Shown here one piece after another: positions 52,534-64,000 of a stretch of DNA of 64,000 nucleotides. Made by a program: the position numbers and the translations under genes. Every line of letters begins with the position of its first letter. Within the stretch, counting starts at the first letter, position 1. The notes under the pieces are model-generated. The model saw only the letters and a program-made list of their open reading frames with translations. It did not search any database and was not told the DNA's origin. Source of the stretch: Geothrix sp. 21YS21S-2 (GTDB taxonomy: Bacteria > Acidobacteriota > Holophagae > Holophagales > Holophagaceae); the NCBI RefSeq assembly GCF_030846775.1, contig NZ_CP132910.1:4467001-4531000 (forward strand), in the 5' to 3' direction.

Positions 52534-53883
52534 TCAGGGGCGACCGCCCAGGGCCGCCAGCCTTCCGAGGGCATCGGCCAGCGCCGCCCGGTCCGTGGCC
52601 GCCCCCAGGGAGATGCGCACCCCGTCGGGGTTCTGGCGCCCCGAGGCGAAGACGCCCGCGGGCACGACCACCACCCCGGCCGCGGCGGCGGCCTGGGCGA
52701 AGGCCGCGGACCCGCCGGGAGGGGCCGTGAGCCAGAGGTGGGGGCAGTGCGGCTCCCCCCGCCAGGCCAGGCCTTCCAGCTGGTCCCGGGCGATGCGGTG
52801 GCGGGCCGCCAGCTCCTTGCGCTGGGCCACGAGGCGCCGCCAGGCGGTGCCGTCCTCCATCCACCGGGTGGCCAGGGCCATGGCCAGGGGCGAGACGTAC
52901 CAGCTGGTGTGGTGCTCGGCGTCCCGGGCGCGGGCCCTCTGGTCCCGGGGGAAGGCGAGGTAGCCCAGGCGCAGGCCCGGGGCGACGGTCTTGGAGAGCC
53001 CCGTGAGGTAGACCACCCGCTCCGGGGCCAGGGCCGCCAGGGCCGGGGGGGCGTCCTCGCTGAGCAGCCCGTAGACGTCCTCCTCGATGATCAGGACGTC
53101 CCACTTCCTGGCTATGGCCACCAGGGTGCGCCGCCGGTCCAGGCCCAGGGTGGCGGTGGTGGGGTTCTGGAGCGTGGGGGAGAACACCGCGAGCCGGATC
53201 CCGGCCCGGCACGCGCCCTCGAAGGCGCTGGGGAGGATGCCCTCGGCGTCCATGGCCAGGGCGTGCAGGCGCCGCTTCCAGTGCCGGGCCGCGGCCTTGA
53301 GGCCGGGGTAGACCAGGCTCTCGCAGGCGATCTCCTCGGCGTCGGGGAAGAGGGAGATGGCGGTGTCCATGGCGTGCTGGGCGCCGGCGCACACCAGGAG
53401 GTCCCCCGGCGCGGTCTCCACGGACCGGCGTTTCAGCCACCGGCAGACGGCGTCCAGGTGCGCCAGGGTGTCCCCGGCCCCGGGGTAGTGCAGGAGCCGC
53501 GCCGCGGCCCCCGCGTCCAGGCGGCGCAGGGCCGCGGCCAGGTCCGGGTCGCTCGCGGCCACGGGGGGGATGTTGGCGGAAAGGTCGATGACCCCGCCCA
53601 GGGGCTTCTGCTGCAGGGCGAACAGCGCGGCCTCGGAGGCCACTCCCAGCACGTAGGTGCCCCGGCCCACCTCGCCCCCCAGGTAGCGCCTGCGGGCGGC
53701 CTCGCGGTAGGCGCGGCTCACGGTGCTCACGTTCACGCCCAGGAGATCGGCCAGGAGCCGGTGGGTGGGGAGCTGGTCCCCGGGCCTGAGGCGGCCCAGC
53801 CGGATCGCGTCGCCGATGGCGTCGGCGATGGCGAGGTAGGCGGGCTGGTCCGAGGCCGGGAGATGAGGTACCCACATTGTCAT
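52534..53883 (-). CDS. MocR-family (GntR-aminotransferase) regulator
   Basis: About 449 residues. The winged-helix part (residues 10-75) has YLAIADAIGDAIRLGRLRPG, LLADLLGVNVSTVSRAY and a GRGTYVLG wing. A fold-type I aminotransferase domain follows with CAGAQHAMDTAI, FSPTLQNPTTATLG, IIEEDVYGLL and the PLP lysine in TGLSKTVAPGLRLGYL. MocR proteins use bound PLP to sense amino compounds. It is divergent from an operon ending in a cysteine desulfurase, so cysteine is a plausible effector. An ATTGT/ACAAT inverted repeat (53876-53892) overlaps its start. No ribosome site is evident. Confidence 0.9.
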   Translation of the reverse strand: MTMWVPHLPASDQPAYLAIADAIGDAIRLGRLRPGDQLPTHRLLADLLGVNVSTVSRAYREAARRRYLGGEVGRGTYVLGVASEAALFALQQKPLGGVIDLSANIPPVAASDPDLAAALRRLDAGAAARLLHYPGAGDTLAHLDAVCRWLKRRSVETAPGDLLVCAGAQHAMDTAISLFPDAEEIACESLVYPGLKAAARHWKRRLHALAMDAEGILPSAFEGACRAGIRLAVFSPTLQNPTTATLGLDRRRTLVAIARKWDVLIIEEDVYGLLSEDAPPALAALAPERVVYLTGLSKTVAPGLRLGYLAFPRDQRARARDAEHHTSWYVSPLAMALATRWMEDGTAWRRLVAQRKELAARHRIARDQLEGLAWRGEPHCPHLWLTAPPGGSAAFAQAAAAAGVVVVPAGVFASGRQNPDGVRISLGAATDRAALADALGRLAALGGRP

Positions 53884-53934
53884 GCATACAATCATGCGAC
53901 ACGTGCACACAAAATGGAACCCGGAGGACAGGCC

Positions 53935-54255
53935 ATGCCCAGTGTGACGTGCAGGGGAACCGCGGTGGAACTGAATGAAGAGGGCTTCCTGGTGGATCCC
54001 GGGGTCTGGGACGAGGAGCTGGCCCTGGCCCTCGCAAGGCAGGAGGAGGGCCTCGAGGCGCTCAACGAGCAGCACTGGTCCGTGATCCGGTTCATCCGGG
54101 GCCACTTCCTGGAGCACGAGGCCGCCCCCATGGTGCGCCAGGTGTGCAAGGGCTCCGGCGTGCCCCTCAAGCAGATCTACGATCTCTTCCCCGGCGGCCC
54201 GGCCCGGGGGGCCTGCAAGCTCGCGGGCCTGCCCAAGCCCGACGGCTGCGTGTAG
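53935..54255 (+). CDS. dsrC: DsrC family sulfur carrier with both C-terminal cysteines
   Basis: 106 residues. LNEEGFLVDPGVWDEELALA and LNEQHWSVIRFIRGHFLE are the DsrC/TusE core; KQIYDLFPGGPARGACKLAG leads to the flexible tail. Cys94 and Cys105 (C-x10-C, penultimate Cys) are both present, which marks true DsrC rather than TusE, which has only the last. DsrC carries sulfur as a persulfide or trisulfide and is reoxidised by membrane Dsr/Tmc complexes. No dsrAB is seen. The ATG at 53935 follows GGAGGA. First of four overlapping or near-adjacent genes. Confidence 0.92.
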   Translation: MPSVTCRGTAVELNEEGFLVDPGVWDEELALALARQEEGLEALNEQHWSVIRFIRGHFLEHEAAPMVRQVCKGSGVPLKQIYDLFPGGPARGACKLAGLPKPDGCV

Positions 54256-54257
54256 CC

Positions 54258-54842
54258 GTGAATCCCGCGCTCCCCGCCGGACTGTGGTGCGGCCTCCTGC
54301 TGGGGGCCCAGCTGCTGCGGGCCCGGGCCCTCGGACGCAGGCCGCTCTTCGCCCCTGCCGCGGGCGATCCCGCAGCCGGCGTGCGCTACGCCTTCACCGG
54401 GGCCATGCTGCCCTGGGCGAAGGAGAGCGTGCGCCTGAATCCAGGTTCGTACGCCGCCGGCATCGCCTACCACCTGGGCATCGCGGCGGCCTTCGCCCTG
54501 GTGTTCGTCCCCTCCCGGGCCCTGGCGGCCCTGGCCCTCCTGGGGGCGCTTGCGGGCTGCTCGCTGCTGGCGAAGCGGATCGTGATGCCCCACCTGCGCG
54601 GGCTCTCCAACGCCGACGACTTCGTGTCCAATGCCCTGGCGACGGCCTTCGCCGGCATCGCCGCGGCCGGCCCGGCCACGTCGCGCATCCTGCCCTGGGC
54701 CTGCGCGGCCCTGCTGGTGTACATCCCCCTGGGCAAGATCCGCCACTGCGCCTTCTTCTTCCTCAGCCGCTACCACCTCGGGGCCTTCTTCGGGCGCCGG
54801 GGCACCTTCCCCCCCGCGGCCCAGGAGCGCCTCCATGGTTGA
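54258..54842 (+). CDS. Membrane cytochrome b-like subunit (DsrM/TmcC/NarI-like)
   Basis: About 194 residues, GTG start 2 nt after dsrC. Five hydrophobic segments can be drawn. Histidines lie in GIAYHLGIA (second segment) and in GKIRHCAFFFLSRYHLG (last segment), the two places where NarI-type cytochromes ligate two b hemes. Together with the HdrD-like protein that overlaps its end by 8 nt it resembles the DsrMK or TmcBC modules that pass electrons between DsrC and menaquinone. Sequence identity is low and the assignment rests on topology plus context. Confidence 0.72.
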   Translation: MNPALPAGLWCGLLLGAQLLRARALGRRPLFAPAAGDPAAGVRYAFTGAMLPWAKESVRLNPGSYAAGIAYHLGIAAAFALVFVPSRALAALALLGALAGCSLLAKRIVMPHLRGLSNADDFVSNALATAFAGIAAAGPATSRILPWACAALLVYIPLGKIRHCAFFFLSRYHLGAFFGRRGTFPPAAQERLHG

Positions 54843-56133
54843 AACCATCGATCTCGAGAAGGGCCTCCAGGCCTTCCGGGCCCGGCTCGGGGAGGCGGAC
54901 GCCGCCCACCTCAACGCCTGCGTGCACTGCGGCCTCTGCGCCCAGAGCTGCCACTACTACCGCATGGACCCGCAGCTGGAGAACGTCCCCGCCCGCAAGC
55001 TGGACCTCGTCGCGCAGGTCTTCCGCCGGCACTTCACGGTCCTGGGCAGGCTGGGCCTCCAGGGTGCGGCCCTGGACGACGCCATGGCCAAGGCCTGGCT
55101 GGACGCGGTGTACGGGCGATGCTCCCTGTGCGGGCGATGCTCCCTGAACTGCACCGTGGGCATCAACCTGCCGCGGGTCTTCAAGGCCGCCCGGGCCGCC
55201 CTGACGGCCATGGGCCTGGCGCCCGCGGACCTGCAGGCCACCGTGGACAACTCGCTGCGCCACGGCAACAACATGGCCATCACCCGGGAGGACTGGGTGG
55301 AGACCGTGGACTGGCTGCAGGACGAGCTCCGGGCGGAGACCGGAGACCCCCTGGCCGAGATGCCCATGGACCGCCACGGCGCGAAGATCCTGTTCACCGT
55401 CAACCCCCGCGAGCCCAAGTTCTTCCCCCTCTCCCTCCAGGCCAGCGCCAAGGTGTTCTGGGCCGCCGGGGAGGACTGGACCCTGGCCTCGGAGGGGTGG
55501 GACCTCACCAATTACGGCCTCTTCAACTGCAACGACAAGGAAGCCGGGACGATCACGCAGAGCCTGGTCGACGCCATGGAGCGCCTGGGCTGCGAGACCC
55601 TGGTGATCGGGGAGTGCGGCCACGGCTTCGCCAGCGCCCGCTGGGAGGGGCCCGAGTGGCTCCAGGCGGCCTATCCCTTCAAGGTGCGCAGCTTCCTAGA
55701 GGTCATGGACGAGTACCTGGAGCAGGGCCGCATCCGGGTGGACCCGGGCATGAACACCAAGGCCGTCACGCTCCACGACCCCTGCAACCTGGTGCGCCAC
55801 GGCGGCGTCACCGAGCCGCAGCGGCGCATCCTGGCGAAGACGGTCTCCTGTTTCCGCGAAATGACCCCCAACCGCGCGGAGAACTTCTGCTGCGGCGGCG
55901 GCGGGGGCCAGCTGGCCATGGGCGCCTACAAGGAGCGCCGCATGCGCTCGGGCGGCATGAAGGCGCAGCAGATACGCGACTCGGGCGCCAAGGTCGTGGT
56001 GGCGCCCTGCCACAACTGCATCGACCAGCTCTCGGAACTGAACAAGGAATACAAGCTGAACGTCCAGATCAAGACGGTCGCCGAGATGGTGGCCGACGCA
56101 CTGGTGACCGAACCCCCCACAGGTGAGCCATGA
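54835..56133 (+). CDS. HdrD/DsrK/TmcB-like iron-sulfur subunit
   Basis: 432 residues. Two N-terminal 4Fe-4S sites are NACVHCGLCAQSCHYY (~28-43) and CSLCGRCSLNCTVG (~98-111). The C-terminal CCG domain has HDPCNLVRHGG, NFCCGGGGGQLAMG and VVAPCHNCIDQLSELN, matching the noncubane 4Fe-4S site of heterodisulfide reductase. An earlier CCG half is degenerate (LFNCNDKEAG). Such subunits reduce or oxidise the DsrC disulfide/trisulfide. Encoded between the cytochrome b-like gene and the desulfurase with 8-nt and 4-nt overlaps. Confidence 0.9.
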   Translation: MVETIDLEKGLQAFRARLGEADAAHLNACVHCGLCAQSCHYYRMDPQLENVPARKLDLVAQVFRRHFTVLGRLGLQGAALDDAMAKAWLDAVYGRCSLCGRCSLNCTVGINLPRVFKAARAALTAMGLAPADLQATVDNSLRHGNNMAITREDWVETVDWLQDELRAETGDPLAEMPMDRHGAKILFTVNPREPKFFPLSLQASAKVFWAAGEDWTLASEGWDLTNYGLFNCNDKEAGTITQSLVDAMERLGCETLVIGECGHGFASARWEGPEWLQAAYPFKVRSFLEVMDEYLEQGRIRVDPGMNTKAVTLHDPCNLVRHGGVTEPQRRILAKTVSCFREMTPNRAENFCCGGGGGQLAMGAYKERRMRSGGMKAQQIRDSGAKVVVAPCHNCIDQLSELNKEYKLNVQIKTVAEMVADALVTEPPTGEP

Positions 56134-57347
56134 CCCAGACCGGAACCCTTTCCCCCTTCCAGGCCCATTCCCCCGCGGGGGGGCTGACGTACCTCGACAA
56201 CGGGGCGACGTCCTTCCCCAAGCCGCCGGAAGTCTACGAGTTCATGGACACCTTCTACCGCACCTACGGCGTGAACCCGGGCCGCAGCGGTTTCGACCTC
56301 TGCATCGAGGCGGGCACGCTGCTCGACACCACCCGCAAGCTGCTCACCGCCTTCTTCGGAGGCACGGACCCCAACCGCCTCGTCTTCGGCTACAACTCCA
56401 CCGACGCCCTGAACCTGGCCATCTTCGGCACCCTCGCCGAAGGGGACCACGTCATCACCACCCACCTGGAGCACAACGCCACGCTGCGCCCCCTCTGGCA
56501 CCTCCAGGAGGCCGGCACCCAGGTGGACTGGGTGGACTTCGAGGACGACGGCTACGTGGATCCCGCGAAGATCATCGCCCGCATGATGAAGGGCACCCGC
56601 GCCGTGGTCATGAACCACGGAAGCAACGTGCTGGGCACGGTGCAGGACGCCGCGGCGGTGGGACGCGCATGCAGGGAACGCGGAATCCTCTTCATCCTGG
56701 ACGTGAGCCAGACCGCGGGCATGGTGCCCGTGAAGATGGACGAGCTGGGGGCGGACATCGTCTGCTTCACCGGCCACAAGAGCCTCATGGGCCCCATGGG
56801 CATCGGCGGGATGTACGTGCGGGAGGGCGTGGAGATCCGGCACACCCGCGCCGGCGGCACCGGCGTGCGCAGCGCCCAGCGCAACCACCTGGACGAGTAT
56901 CCCTACCGCATGGAGTACGGCACCCCCAACCTCCCCGGCATCGCGGGCCTCAACGCCGGCGTCAACTGGGTGAACCGCCACGGCCTCGGGGCCATCCACC
57001 ACCACGAGATGGAGCTGTGGCGCCAGCTGCGGGACGGCCTGAAGGCCATCGAGGGCGTCACGCTCTACTGCCAGGAGGACGCCGGCAAGGAGCGCATCAG
57101 CGTCCTGACCTTCAACGTGGACGGCCTGGAGGCCGCCGACACCGGCACCATGCTGGACGTGGACTACAACATCGCCTGCCGCACCGGCCTGCACTGCACC
57201 CCCATGGTCCACGAGCACCTGGGCACGGACAGGCTCCACGGCGCCGCGCGCTTCGGCATCGGCCCCTTCAACACGTCCGCGCACATCGCTGCGGCGGTTT
57301 CGGCCGTGGGCGAGATCGCGGAGATGCAGCGCAAGCGCAAGCACTGA
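56130..57347 (+). CDS. Class V aminotransferase, cysteine desulfurase-like
   Basis: 405 residues, fold-type I PLP enzyme. TYLDNGATSFPKPPEVYEF opens the protein. LEHNATLRPLWHL and ILDVSQTAGMVPV follow. The PLP lysine is in CFTGHKSLMGPMGIGG, and IACRTGLHCTPM holds the candidate catalytic cysteine on the extended loop. This is the SufS/CsdA-like layout. ATGA overlap with the HdrD-like gene ties it to the dsrC operon, where it could supply persulfide sulfur from cysteine to DsrC. Transfer to DsrC is inferred from context; TusA is absent from the cluster. Confidence 0.88.
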   Translation: MTQTGTLSPFQAHSPAGGLTYLDNGATSFPKPPEVYEFMDTFYRTYGVNPGRSGFDLCIEAGTLLDTTRKLLTAFFGGTDPNRLVFGYNSTDALNLAIFGTLAEGDHVITTHLEHNATLRPLWHLQEAGTQVDWVDFEDDGYVDPAKIIARMMKGTRAVVMNHGSNVLGTVQDAAAVGRACRERGILFILDVSQTAGMVPVKMDELGADIVCFTGHKSLMGPMGIGGMYVREGVEIRHTRAGGTGVRSAQRNHLDEYPYRMEYGTPNLPGIAGLNAGVNWVNRHGLGAIHHHEMELWRQLRDGLKAIEGVTLYCQEDAGKERISVLTFNVDGLEAADTGTMLDVDYNIACRTGLHCTPMVHEHLGTDRLHGAARFGIGPFNTSAHIAAAVSAVGEIAEMQRKRKH

Positions 57348-58551: not shown

Positions 58552-59451
58552 CTAGAACTCCGGCGGCGTGAGGGTCCGCAGGTAGTCGGTGAGCAGCCGG
58601 TGACGGCCCAGAGCCGCCCGGCGCTTCTTCTGGTAGATGAAGAACCGGTCCTCCCGGGGCCGGACACCCGGCAGAACCGCGGTGAGCGCCCCCCGCTCCA
58701 GTTCGCCCAGCACGCTGTAGGTGGGGGCCAGCAGGACCCCGAGGCCCTCCACGGCGGCGTTGATCATGGCCCGGATGTGGTTGACCTCGATGATCCGGTG
58801 GAAGTCGGGCCGGCCCTCCTCGGGAAGGGCCAGGAGGAATCGATGCCACCAGGCGCCCGCCTTGTCCAGGGAGAGCACCGGCCGGGAGCCCAGGTCCCCG
58901 GGGGAGGCGATCCCGCCGGTGGCCAGGAAGGACGGCGCGGCGGCCACCACGTAGGTCTCGATGAACCAGGGGAGCTTCTGCAGGTCGGGCAGGAGGTGCT
59001 CCCGGCAGTCGATGATGATGTCCAGGTCGTCCCGCAGGAGGGGCGTGAGCAGGTCGTGGGCGAGGGTGAAGTCGATCTCCAGGTCCGGGTGCTCCGCAAG
59101 GAAGGGGCCCATGTGGCGCATGAGGATGCTGCTGCCGAATTCGACCGTGGCCCCCAGGCGCAGGCGCCCCCCCGCCGTGGCCAGCCCCAGGCCCTCGGCG
59201 GCGGCCTCCAGGGTCGCGAAGACCTCCTCGCAGGCCTGGAAGAGGTGCCGCCCATCCTCGGTCAGGCGCGGCTCCCGGTTCCGGCGGTCCACCAGGAGGG
59301 TGCCGGCGCCGGCCTCCAGCTTGGCCACCGCGTGGCTGATGGCGGACTGCGTGAGGTTCAGCTTCCGGGCGGCCCGGGTGAAGCTCCCGGTGGTGCCCAG
59401 GGCGTGGAAGGCTCGCAATTGGTACAGGTCTAGTTGGTTGGCCATATCCAT
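58552..59451 (-). CDS. LysR-family regulator divergent from aldehyde dehydrogenase
   Basis: About 299 residues. HTH: LRAFHALGTTGSFTRAARKL with NLTQSAISHAVAKLE. The effector domain begins near residue 90 (GRLRLGATVEFGSSILM) and ends before the RTLTPPEF tail. It is divergent from the ALDH gene with 85 bp between starts, the classical LysR-target layout, so it likely activates that gene in response to an aldehyde or amino-acid breakdown product. A second ATG at 59445 is possible. Confidence 0.9.
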   Translation of the reverse strand: MDMANQLDLYQLRAFHALGTTGSFTRAARKLNLTQSAISHAVAKLEAGAGTLLVDRRNREPRLTEDGRHLFQACEEVFATLEAAAEGLGLATAGGRLRLGATVEFGSSILMRHMGPFLAEHPDLEIDFTLAHDLLTPLLRDDLDIIIDCREHLLPDLQKLPWFIETYVVAAAPSFLATGGIASPGDLGSRPVLSLDKAGAWWHRFLLALPEEGRPDFHRIIEVNHIRAMINAAVEGLGVLLAPTYSVLGELERGALTAVLPGVRPREDRFFIYQKKRRAALGRHRLLTDYLRTLTPPEF

Positions 59452-59464
59452 GAATTGTACTCAT
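59450..59464. promoter_or_regulatory. Possible LysR binding site (T-N11-A)
   Basis: ATGAATTGTACTCAT has perfect 4-bp arms (ATGA/TCAT) and fits T-N11-A. It overlaps the LysR gene's own start, suggesting autoregulation. Short arms make chance occurrence possible. Confidence 0.3.
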
Positions 59465-59536
59465 AGTTGGCGTGAAAAGAACGATTTTGAGTGTCAGTTT
59501 CAATGGGCGTATATATCTAGGCCAGAGGTGAACGAC

Positions 59537-61063
59537 ATGCAGGCAGTCATGGAGAAGGTCCTGGCGAAACTCGGAATCGCGGAGCACAACCTGGGCGGGT
59601 TCAACGGGGAATGGATCGGCAGCGGCCGCAACCAGGACGTCGTCTCCCCGGTGGACGGCGCCACGCTGGCCACCGTGGCCAACATCACCAAGGAGGAGTT
59701 CGACGCCGTGCTGGCCCGGACCCACGAGGCCTGGAAGTCCTGGCGCCTGGTGCCCGCCCCCAAGCGGGGCGAGGTGGTCAAGGAGCTGGGCGACGAGCTG
59801 CGCCGCAACAAGGAGGCCCTGGCCGAGCTGGTCACCCTGGAGATGGGCAAGACGCTGCGGGAGGGCCTGGGCGAGGTCCAGGAGATGATCGACATCTGCG
59901 ACCTGGCGGTGGGCCTGTCCCGGCAGCTCTACGGCCTGACCATGCCCAGCGAGCGCCGCATGCACCGCCTGCAGGAGCAGTGGCTCCCCCTGGGCGTCGT
60001 GGGCGTGATCACCGCCTTCAACTTCCCCGTGGCCGTGTGGAGCTGGAACACCGCCATCGCCCTGGTGTGCGGCGACACGGTGCTGTGGAAGCCCTCCAGC
60101 AAGACGCCCCTGACCGCCATCGCCTGCACCCGCATCGCCGAGCGCGTCCTGCGCAAGTTCGGCTACGATCCCGCCATCTGCAGCCTGGCCATCGGCAGGG
60201 GCAGCGACATCGGCGACCTCATCAACACCGACCCCCGGGTGGCCCTGGTGTCCTACACGGGCTCGGTTCCCGGCGGGCGCCACGTGGGCAGGCTGGTGCA
60301 GGAGCGCTTCGGCCGCCACATCCTCGAACTGGGCGGCAACGGCGCCGTGATCGTCAGCGAGAAGGGGGATCTGGAGACGGCCCTGACCTCGGTCTACTTC
60401 GGCGCCATCGGCACCTCGGGCCAGCGCTGCACCTCCACCCGGCGCGTGATCGTCCACGAGTCCATCTACGACGGGTTCGTGGCCAGGCTCAAGGACATGT
60501 ACGCCAAGACCCGCATCGGCGACCCGAGGGACGCCAACAACCTCATGGGCCCCCTGGTGGACGGCGGCGCGGTGGCCACCATGCTGGAGGCCATCGGGAC
60601 CATCAAGGCCCAGGGCGGCACCATCCTGGCCGGCGGCGAGCGCCTGCCCCTCCCCGGCGGGTGCTACATCACCCCCTGCCTCGCCGAGGTGCCCGCGGAA
60701 CTGCCCATGACCCGGGAGGAGACCTTCGCCCCGGTGCTCTACCTCACCCGGTACTCGACCATCGAGGAGGCCATCGCCATCCAGAACGACGTCCCCCAGG
60801 GCCTGTCCAGCGCCATCATCACCAACGACATGCGGGAGTCCGAGCTCTTCCTGTCCGCCGCCGGCAGCGACTGCGGCATCGCCAACGTGAACACCGGCAC
60901 CAGCGGCGCCGAGATCGGGGGCGCCTTCGGCGGGGAGAAGGAGACCGGCGGTGGGCGCGAAAGCGGCTCCGACGCGTGGAAGGCCTACATGCGCAGGCAG
61001 ACGAGCGCGATCAACTTCAGCGGGAAGGTCGAGTTGGCCCAGGGCATCACCCTCGAACTCTGA
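59537..61063 (+). CDS. ALDH7-type aldehyde dehydrogenase (aminoadipate semialdehyde-like)
   Basis: 508 residues. WLPLGVVGVITAFNFPVAVW, VLWKPSSKTPL, LELGGNGAVIVSEKGDLE (general base Glu) and FGAIGTSGQRCTSTRRVIVH (nucleophile Cys) define the family. The tail GEKETGGGRESGSDAWKAYM is typical of the antiquitin/ALDH7 branch, which oxidises alpha-aminoadipic semialdehyde (piperideine-6-carboxylate) in lysine breakdown. ATG 59537 has GAGGTG 7 nt upstream. No lysine-catabolic gene is adjacent, so the substrate is not certain. Confidence 0.88.
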   Translation: MQAVMEKVLAKLGIAEHNLGGFNGEWIGSGRNQDVVSPVDGATLATVANITKEEFDAVLARTHEAWKSWRLVPAPKRGEVVKELGDELRRNKEALAELVTLEMGKTLREGLGEVQEMIDICDLAVGLSRQLYGLTMPSERRMHRLQEQWLPLGVVGVITAFNFPVAVWSWNTAIALVCGDTVLWKPSSKTPLTAIACTRIAERVLRKFGYDPAICSLAIGRGSDIGDLINTDPRVALVSYTGSVPGGRHVGRLVQERFGRHILELGGNGAVIVSEKGDLETALTSVYFGAIGTSGQRCTSTRRVIVHESIYDGFVARLKDMYAKTRIGDPRDANNLMGPLVDGGAVATMLEAIGTIKAQGGTILAGGERLPLPGGCYITPCLAEVPAELPMTREETFAPVLYLTRYSTIEEAIAIQNDVPQGLSSAIITNDMRESELFLSAAGSDCGIANVNTGTSGAEIGGAFGGEKETGGGRESGSDAWKAYMRRQTSAINFSGKVELAQGITLEL

Positions 61064-63327: not shown

Positions 63328-63377
63328 CCGGAGAAGTCGAGGATGACTGCTTTTCATCCTGCTTTCATCCCCGTCCA

Positions 63378-63431
63378 TCCCCGTTCATCCCCGGCGAAAC
63401 AAGCGCTTGATTTGCCGGGGATGAACGGGGA
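63378..63431. repeat. 54-bp near-perfect palindrome adjoining group II intron
   Basis: TCCCCGTTCATCCCCGGC (63378-63395) and its exact complement (63414-63431) flank a centre that is itself palindromic (CAAGCGCTTG, 63400-63409). The arms consist of repeated CATCCCCG units, seen also at 63366-63373. The intron begins at the very next base. Confidence 0.9.
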
Positions 63432-64000
63432 GTGCGCCAGGCCAAGCCTGGGCGAGGAGGATGGATGACCTAAGACAGACTGAAACCTCGCAATGGAGCC
63501 CAGCGGGGAGGCAGCAAGCCCCGCCCGGCAAAGCTGGCCAGCAGCCGGAACCGAGTCTTGCGTGGGGAAGGGCGACCGACCTCGTGAAGCGTAGACAGGG
63601 AGTGCATGGGCCGTGTGATGGAGCCCCGAAAGCATCCAACCGTGGGAGTCGACGCCGTTCTCCGATCGGAAGACAGCACCCGAAGGTCGCAAGGGCCTGA
63701 CCGTAGGGTCCCACCGGGGTCATAGAGCAGGGCACGTGCACAGGGGTTCCCCAGGAACCTGGGAGATCCAGCCATCTCCGCCAACAACCCAGTGGTGAGG
63801 GAAGCCACGTAAAACGAACCCAGGCTCGCCGGGGGGTGCCGCCCCCGGCGGGAGCGAACAGCCGGCACAGGGCGGTACCGCAAACTGAAGGAAACGAAGG
63901 AGCGCGGGAGGGGTGGCCGGAAGTCGGAGCAGCTCATAGTAGCGATGATCGCGGGGAACCGGGCCGCCGGGACCCGCTGGAGCCAAGGAGCTGCCGGATC
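63432..64000 (+). mobile_element. Group II intron, 5' part (continues past window end)
   Basis: GTGCGCC at 63432 fits the GTGYG 5' end of group II introns. The following 500 nt are dense in stem-loops, show no real gene and contain stretches familiar from intron domain I (AAGGGCGACCGACCTCGTG, GCAAGGGCCTGACCG, CTCATAGTAGCGATGATC). The intron-encoded protein begins near the window end. Insertion directly 3' of a large palindrome is the habit of bacterial class C introns, which prefer stem-loops or terminators; the class itself cannot be fixed here. The 3' end and domains V/VI are outside. Confidence 0.72.
63945..64000 (+). CDS. Group II intron-encoded protein, N-terminus only
   Basis: The frame RKSEQLIVAMIAGNRAAGT matches the usual N-terminal lead-in of intron reverse transcriptase/maturase proteins. 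The first ATG in frame is at 63945. The frame is open back to a stop near 63810, so an alternative upstream start is possible. Only about 18 residues are inside the window, so reverse transcriptase motifs cannot be checked. Confidence 0.5.
   Translation, partial: MIAGNRAAGTRWSQGAAG

Follow-up and report, generated by a model that had tools for sequence, protein, structure and literature searches.

In sulfate and sulfite reducers, the DsrC-DsrMK(JOP) system joins a DsrC with two C-terminal cysteines to an HdrD-related protein of the CCG superfamily (DsrK, which binds DsrC; PMC3397948) and a NarI-like, quinone-facing subunit. Related iron-sulfur and membrane subunits occur in the TmcABCD and Hmc complexes of Desulfovibrio. 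In methanogen HdrDE and mycobacterial EtfD, a CCG protein and a b-type cytochrome connect a cytoplasmic carrier with a membrane quinone or phenazine, and in the IscS-TusA-TusBCD-TusE relay of tRNA thiolation a cysteine desulfurase feeds a DsrC-family protein. Here, we describe a set of four genes, dsrC-cytB-hdrD-csd, in a 64,000-nucleotide window (the whole stretch analysed, positions 4,467,001 to 4,531,000 of contig NZ_CP132910.1) of Geothrix sp. 21YS21S-2 (Acidobacteriota; Holophagaceae), whose genome is a single contig of 5.25 Mb. The set encodes a two-cysteine DsrC, a NarI/TmcC/HmcE-like membrane subunit (CytB), an HdrD-like iron-sulfur subunit (HdrD) and a cysteine desulfurase (Csd), and it forms one functional unit, conserved over several phyla in genomes without sulfite reductase.

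The module resembles each of these systems but, by scores and gene content, is not a member of DsrMKJOP, Tmc, Hmc, the Dsr pathway or the Tus relay. Unlike DsrC-DsrMK(JOP), it comes without DsrAB or another siroheme reductase and without JOP genes, its HdrD scores below the DsrK cut-off, and a cysteine desulfurase replaces the sulfur-loading enzyme. The best sequence models for its redox subunits are those of Hmc and Tmc (HmcF and TmcB for HdrD, HmcE and TmcC for CytB), but the scores stay under half of the cut-offs, and the set lacks any multihaem cytochrome c as well as NrfD-type and periplasmic subunits. In contrast to the Tus relay, it pairs desulfurase and DsrC-family protein directly, without TusBCD, keeps the second cysteine, adds a quinone-linked redox pair and is patchily distributed. 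Mycobacterial EtfD is the best structural match of the module HdrD; unlike in HdrDE and EtfD, however, the carrier is presumably DsrC rather than CoM-S-S-CoB or electron-transferring flavoprotein, and the subunits are separate where those of EtfD are fused. Excerpts of a 2023 survey of Dsr proteins include some DsrMK lineages without DsrAB, and a desulfurase link does not appear in those excerpts. The open PubMed Central literature, the range of our search, yielded no description of the combination, in line with the initial annotation, which had recognized the parts separately but not together. The parts are known, and the circuit is new.

The four plus-strand genes (53935–57347) are separated by a 2-base gap followed by 8-base and 4-base overlaps, and a MocR gene diverges from them; the tight coupling and the divergent MocR are as first annotated. 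The genes flanking the set are kept in the two nearest relatives only, and the unit therefore ends at csd. Among 77 Holophagaceae genomes, DsrC was found in 20, HdrD in 21 and the Csd clade in 22; 19 genomes have all three, 5 have part of the set and 53 have none. All mismatches come from fragmentary genomes or from genes at contig ends: in one, hdrD starts 267 bases into the contig (G069), and in another the contig ends about 100 bases after dsrC (G065). The order dsrC-cytB-hdrD-csd is identical in 19 Holophagaceae relatives, as far as the contigs reach. In other Acidobacteriota families, csd converges on dsrC-cytB-hdrD, cytB-hdrD-dsrC faces csd, dsrC faces csd alone, or other layouts occur.

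A locus search by Csd alignment alone over 84,980 species genomes returned 80 loci. In 44 of these, dsrC lies no more than about 8 kb away, and another 4 show the module hdrD at a contig end. The chance expectation for dsrC lying near csd, roughly estimated from one dsrC per 3–5 Mb genome, is below about 1% per locus. All four genes are present in Aminicenantes, Eisenbacteria, Zixibacteria, Fibrobacterota (Chitinivibrionales) and Bacteroidota, as well as in Phycisphaerae, where dsrC is cut by the contig end; a Krumholzibacteriia contig shows three, and dsrC would fall past its end. At least seven arrangements of the set were seen, in which csd either runs in the same direction as its partners or converges on them. 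On the Csd tree, which was built quickly and has many weak forks, the arrangement changes at least nine times (seven types alone require six). That these four genes have been re-linked again and again is the strongest indication that they function together. In 27 genomes with Csd, no dsrC was seen adjoining it, and 23 of these have DsrC elsewhere; all four of the dsrC-csd-only genomes that were checked carry a separate CytB-HdrD pair, with a divergent HdrD (about 35% identity) in three. In control loci picked by DsrC (40, from the phylum of a Bacteroidales host, in which the module is rare), no partner gene reached module-level scores, which shows that linkage to the module genes is not a general property of DsrC. 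The genes thus co-occur in relatives, as the initial annotation required of its proposal, and far beyond them. Genes for an amidohydrolase, HPPK, PhoR/PhoB, cysS, a cupin, a TonB receptor and a Ca-ATPase were considered as further parts and rejected, since they recur mainly within Aminicenantes-like genomes.

Sulfite reductase is absent from the host. A genome-wide search found no PF01077 (NIR_SIR) domain, so that both DsrAB and assimilatory siroheme enzymes of this family are missing; the same search was positive in 11 of 14 known genomes used as a control. DsrAB, by which the Dsr pathway is defined, is thus missing from the whole genome, as had been noted from the local sequence, and no complete Dsr sulfite-reduction system exists there to which the four genes could belong. 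PF01077 is also absent from 38 of 44 further Acidobacteriota carrying the set or parts of it. Each of the other six has a single PF01077 open frame, with two domain matches in one of them, a pattern more consistent with a single-chain assimilatory-type enzyme than with dsrA and dsrB as separate genes. The domain was likewise absent in all 20 genomes from other named lineages, and overall 59 of 65 module genomes lack any NIR_SIR domain; many of these are draft metagenome-assembled genomes, which makes single absences soft, but not the overall pattern. That the module is the remnant of a Dsr sulfite-reduction system after loss of dsrAB is the least probable explanation we considered. DsrC with an HdrD/NarI-like pair does resemble DsrC-DsrMK, but HdrD scores nearer to HmcF and TmcB than to DsrK, csd is a fixed member of the set, and many lineages that lack NIR_SIR domains have the set complete. 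Moreover, the module DsrCs cluster apart from other DsrCs, and no relative with dsrAB has so far been seen to carry the DsrC, HdrD and Csd clades of the module as an ancestral state.

The host encodes a single DsrC, according to a genome-wide search. It belongs to the DsrC family (PF04358, 110.7 bits against a cut-off of 24.9; TIGR03342, 94.9 against 53.5) and to DsrC sensu stricto, with C94 and C105 invariant across 18 relatives. Both C-terminal cysteines are kept in all 73 module DsrCs, whereas in the Bacteroidota control DsrCs the first cysteine position is often Ala, Ser or Thr. On a DsrC tree built from few columns and with many weak forks, the module DsrCs group together (the label changes 6 times, whereas shuffled labels change 59.6 times on average). 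The second cysteine has been described as restricted to DsrAB-bearing organisms with few exceptions, namely Methylococcaceae, Marinobacter and Lawsonia, and DsrC-family proteins from organisms without DsrAB usually lack it (PMC3397948). The module DsrCs break this published rule.

These cysteines bear on a further explanation, a biosynthetic relay in which Csd loads a TusE-like DsrC that passes sulfur to a tRNA-thiolating or cofactor enzyme, while HdrD-CytB merely keeps DsrC reduced. DsrC is homologous to TusE, a desulfurase-fed TusE relay is known (PMC3397948), and some Acidobacteriota have cysS close to the module. Yet most Holophagaceae lack the module, which would be unexpected for tRNA thiolation, and the host has one marginal DsrE-family match genome-wide (23.6 bits, cut-off 22.7), hence no TusBCD trio. 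The Tus system has no membrane redox pair, and the strict retention of the second cysteine, against the usual state in DsrAB-free organisms, speaks for a disulfide cycle over plain sulfur passing. We therefore regard the relay as unlikely.

Other DsrC contexts were also observed. Tandem double DsrC domains occur in open frames of about 220–290 aa, one of them 623 aa (G457, G460, G466, G470 and G472; also G081, G181 and G376); both domains stop near profile position 101, so that the C-terminal cysteine arm is missing. In G466, an HdrD-like gene is found no more than about 1 kb from such frames, and another DsrC no more than 3 kb from them. In three Acidobacteriota loci (L092, L094 and L100), dsrC adjoins genes for a DsrE2-like protein and a type III sulfide-quinone reductase (selenoprotein-subtype model), without csd or HdrD.

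HdrD contains two 4Fe-4S motifs (Cys 29/32/35/39 and 96/99/102/106) and one complete CCG motif for a non-cubane cluster (Cys 317/352/353/392/395), all invariant across 18 relatives. With this combination of 4Fe-4S and CX(n)CCX(n)CXXC motifs, and a CCG match (PF02754) of 39.1 bits against a cut-off of 20.6, it is a member of the CCG/HdrD superfamily. Its equivalog scores are all below the cut-offs (HmcF 305 of 750, TmcB 275 of 735, DsrK 217.9 of 400), and its predicted structure (predicted local distance difference test score, pLDDT, 91) is closest to EtfD, followed by LutA and HdrB. CytB matched no Pfam family, and a profile search of solved structures with it gave no match. Weak matches were obtained to the models for HmcE (E 9e-8; 32 bits against an equivalog cut-off of 275) and TmcC (E 4e-5; 23 against 240). 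The predicted structure of CytB (pLDDT 94) is closest to NarI, with a Z score of 10.9, where the next unrelated fold reaches 6.8, in a comparison in which helical bundles inflate Z. H72 and H163 are the only two invariant histidines in 65 sequences, and CytB is, from this pair, a probable single-haem quinone-reactive cytochrome b.

The four proteins fall into two coupled pairs. Across 57 loci with all four, distance-matrix correlations are r 0.93 for CytB-HdrD and r 0.83 for DsrC-Csd, against r 0.51–0.66 for the four cross-pairs. All of these correlations exceed each of 999 permutations; because the proteins share one phylogeny, only the contrast between pairs is informative. The same division appears in the split genomes, where dsrC-csd lies apart from cytB-hdrD. 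This suggests that Csd acts on DsrC, and CytB together with HdrD.

Csd belongs to TIGR01977 (387.7 bits, cut-off 377), and its nearest named relative is Holophagaceae bacterium UBA692 (95% identity). Lys217, which binds pyridoxal 5'-phosphate (PLP), and the catalytic Cys356 (in RTGLHC) are invariant in 20 relatives. It falls well below the SufS model TIGR01979 (227.3 against a cut-off of 475.1). The host genome has two further TIGR01977-like genes elsewhere, which makes the module csd a dedicated paralogue. A role in selenium handling, with Csd as a selenocysteine lyase, is very unlikely: the SclA model NF040779 matches all 20 relatives, but Csd scores 277.6, far under its cut-off of 525, whereas that of TIGR01977 is passed, and the partners in the module are sulfur proteins. 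Selenocysteine in a Csd paralogue and in some Aminicenantes-type HdrDs was considered and rejected, as the in-frame stops are terminal or upstream stop codons. A second TIGR01977-like desulfurase gene of the host lies near the genome's only, marginal DsrE-family match (C1:3438714-3441688; L225 and L232). In Desulfobacteraceae (L150, L161, L162 and L167), a related csd (57–61% identity) adjoins genes for a GntR-FCD regulator and a phosphorylase-family protein, not dsrC.

We propose that Csd persulfurates DsrC, that formation of a DsrC disulfide releases sulfide, and that HdrD-CytB re-reduces DsrC with electrons from menaquinol. By analogy with E. coli IscS, which with cysteine persulfurates Allochromatium vinosum DsrC in vitro at the penultimate cysteine only (PMC3397948), Csd would take sulfur from L-cysteine, leaving alanine, and pass the persulfide to the penultimate C105. 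C94 would then attack this persulfide, giving sulfide and an intramolecular disulfide. As their families suggest, HdrD, through its CCG cluster, and the NarI-like CytB would constitute a small membrane enzyme that returns DsrC to the dithiol state. The net reaction would be cysteine + MQH2 -> alanine + H2S + MQ (MQ, menaquinone; MQH2, menaquinol), a DsrAB-free, quinone-linked cysteine desulfuration. In sulfate reducers, DsrMK(JOP) reduces a DsrC trisulfide, according to excerpts of a published account (PMC10504309). This cycle is the explanation that we favour, with slightly less than even confidence; sulfur transfer, disulfide formation, quinone chemistry and direction are what we infer in it. 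The initial annotation had likewise suggested DsrC loaded with cysteine sulfur and coupled to the menaquinone pool; the conserved residues, the coupled pairs and the IscS-DsrC precedent fit this suggestion. More tentatively, cysteine sulfur, as DsrC persulfide and then disulfide, may be the electron acceptor of a menaquinol oxidase, HdrD-CytB, in an undescribed anaerobic respiration or electron sink that would produce sulfide without sulfite reductase in several phyla.

The reductive direction is preferred because Csd delivers sulfane sulfur and no oxidizing enzyme travels with the set. In the opposite direction, HdrD-CytB would oxidize persulfurated or dithiol DsrC and deliver electrons to menaquinone, so that cysteine sulfur would be a reduced donor leaving as DsrC trisulfide or polysulfide. 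A published model for Acidobacteria has DsrMKJOP oxidizing persulfurated DsrC with electrons passing to quinone (PMC6018796), the action of a desulfurase stops at the sulfane level, which is compatible with an oxidative next step, and Fe(III) reduction in Mesoterricola (PMC13064192) indicates that acceptors exist. However, DsrAB, the known consumer of the trisulfide, is absent, and no other conserved sulfur-oxidizing gene accompanies the module; we consider the oxidative direction improbable, to about the same degree as the biosynthetic relay.

Several points weigh against the favoured cycle. NarI/HdrD-type enzymes run both ways, so sequence does not fix the direction, and the potential of cysteine/(alanine + H2S) is, on a rough estimate, near that of menaquinone, which would leave little energy to be gained. 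The chemistry assigned to the proteins of the module is a proposal. Since HdrD scores below the DsrK cut-off, gene linkage is the basis for pairing it with DsrC; haem binding in CytB is deduced solely from the two invariant histidines, and the distance correlations share one background phylogeny. Finally, 4 of the 27 Csd-clade genomes mentioned above show no DsrC, and three genomes with dsrC-csd (G267, G484 and G485) gave no HdrD match at the threshold used; most of these exceptions are draft genomes.

The MocR protein reaches 404.7 bits with the EhuR model, below its cut-off of 480, and its gene faces dsrC in most Holophagaceae. The inverted repeat TTGT-N7-ACAAT is present in all 17 aligned MocR-dsrC intergenic regions (14 distinct), with the leading A in 15. 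An ACACAAA-like downstream box is found in most of them, and much of the remainder diverges. The first box extends as far as the MocR start codon in the window, suggesting that both directions may be controlled together. Among the loci examined outside Holophagaceae and close kin, none has MocR with the module, and no regulator is conserved with it across phyla. The regulatory part of the initial annotation, with a MocR putatively able to sense cysteine through PLP, thus applies locally: a divergent MocR gene with a conserved operator goes with the module in most Holophagaceae, and is confined to that group and its close kin. The regulator bears on another explanation, in which the module serves thiol-redox or cysteine/sulfide homeostasis. 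It would then remove excess cysteine or set the thiol state instead of conserving energy, and MocR would sense an amino acid. The operator conserved in Holophagaceae and the GntR-FCD regulator next to the related csd of Desulfobacteraceae would agree with this, but no such regulation follows the module across phyla, and a dedicated quinone-linked membrane enzyme appears costly for detoxification, which is an argument rather than a test. We regard homeostasis as clearly less probable than either the oxidative direction or the relay.

The features of the locus are listed in the table below.

Features of the dsrC-cytB-hdrD-csd locus (positions in the window)
Feature	Position	Strand	Details
MocR/GntR regulator with aminotransferase-like PLP domain	52534..53877	-	GntR + Aminotran_1_2; start codon uncertain
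Probable MocR operator, inverted repeat ATTGT-N7-ACAAT	53876..53892	no strand	conservation in aligned intergenic regions
Second conserved box GCACACAAAAT, repeat of the operator right half	53905..53915	no strand	ACACAAA-like core in alignment
dsrC	53935..54255	+	ATG start; 106 aa; C94 and C105 at C-terminus; PF04358 E 6e-32
cytB (CytB), NarI/TmcC/HmcE-like membrane subunit	54258..54842	+	GTG start; 194 aa; 2 bases after dsrC
hdrD-like iron-sulfur subunit	54835..56133	+	ATG start; 432 aa; 8-base overlap with cytB
csd, TIGR01977-type cysteine desulfurase	56130..57347	+	ATG start; 405 aa; 4-base overlap with hdrD; RTGLHC

Downstream in the window, a LysR-type regulator gene diverges from an aldehyde dehydrogenase gene (58552–61063; names from translations), and at 63354–63986 the minus strand holds several overlapping open frames whose translations are of low complexity.

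A two-cysteine DsrC is usually taken as a companion of DsrAB, and here an entire group of these DsrCs is found in genomes without siroheme sulfite reductase, accompanied by a dedicated cysteine desulfurase and a quinone-linked CCG enzyme. The presence of dsrC alone, or of an HdrD/NarI pair, in metagenomes should therefore not be counted as sulfate reduction. Most of the phyla bearing the module are known through genomes from sediments, soils, lakes and digesters. If the proposed cycle is true, Acidobacteriota, Bacteroidota and others would couple the turnover of cysteine to their respiratory chain, a route to sulfide overlooked by dsrAB surveys.

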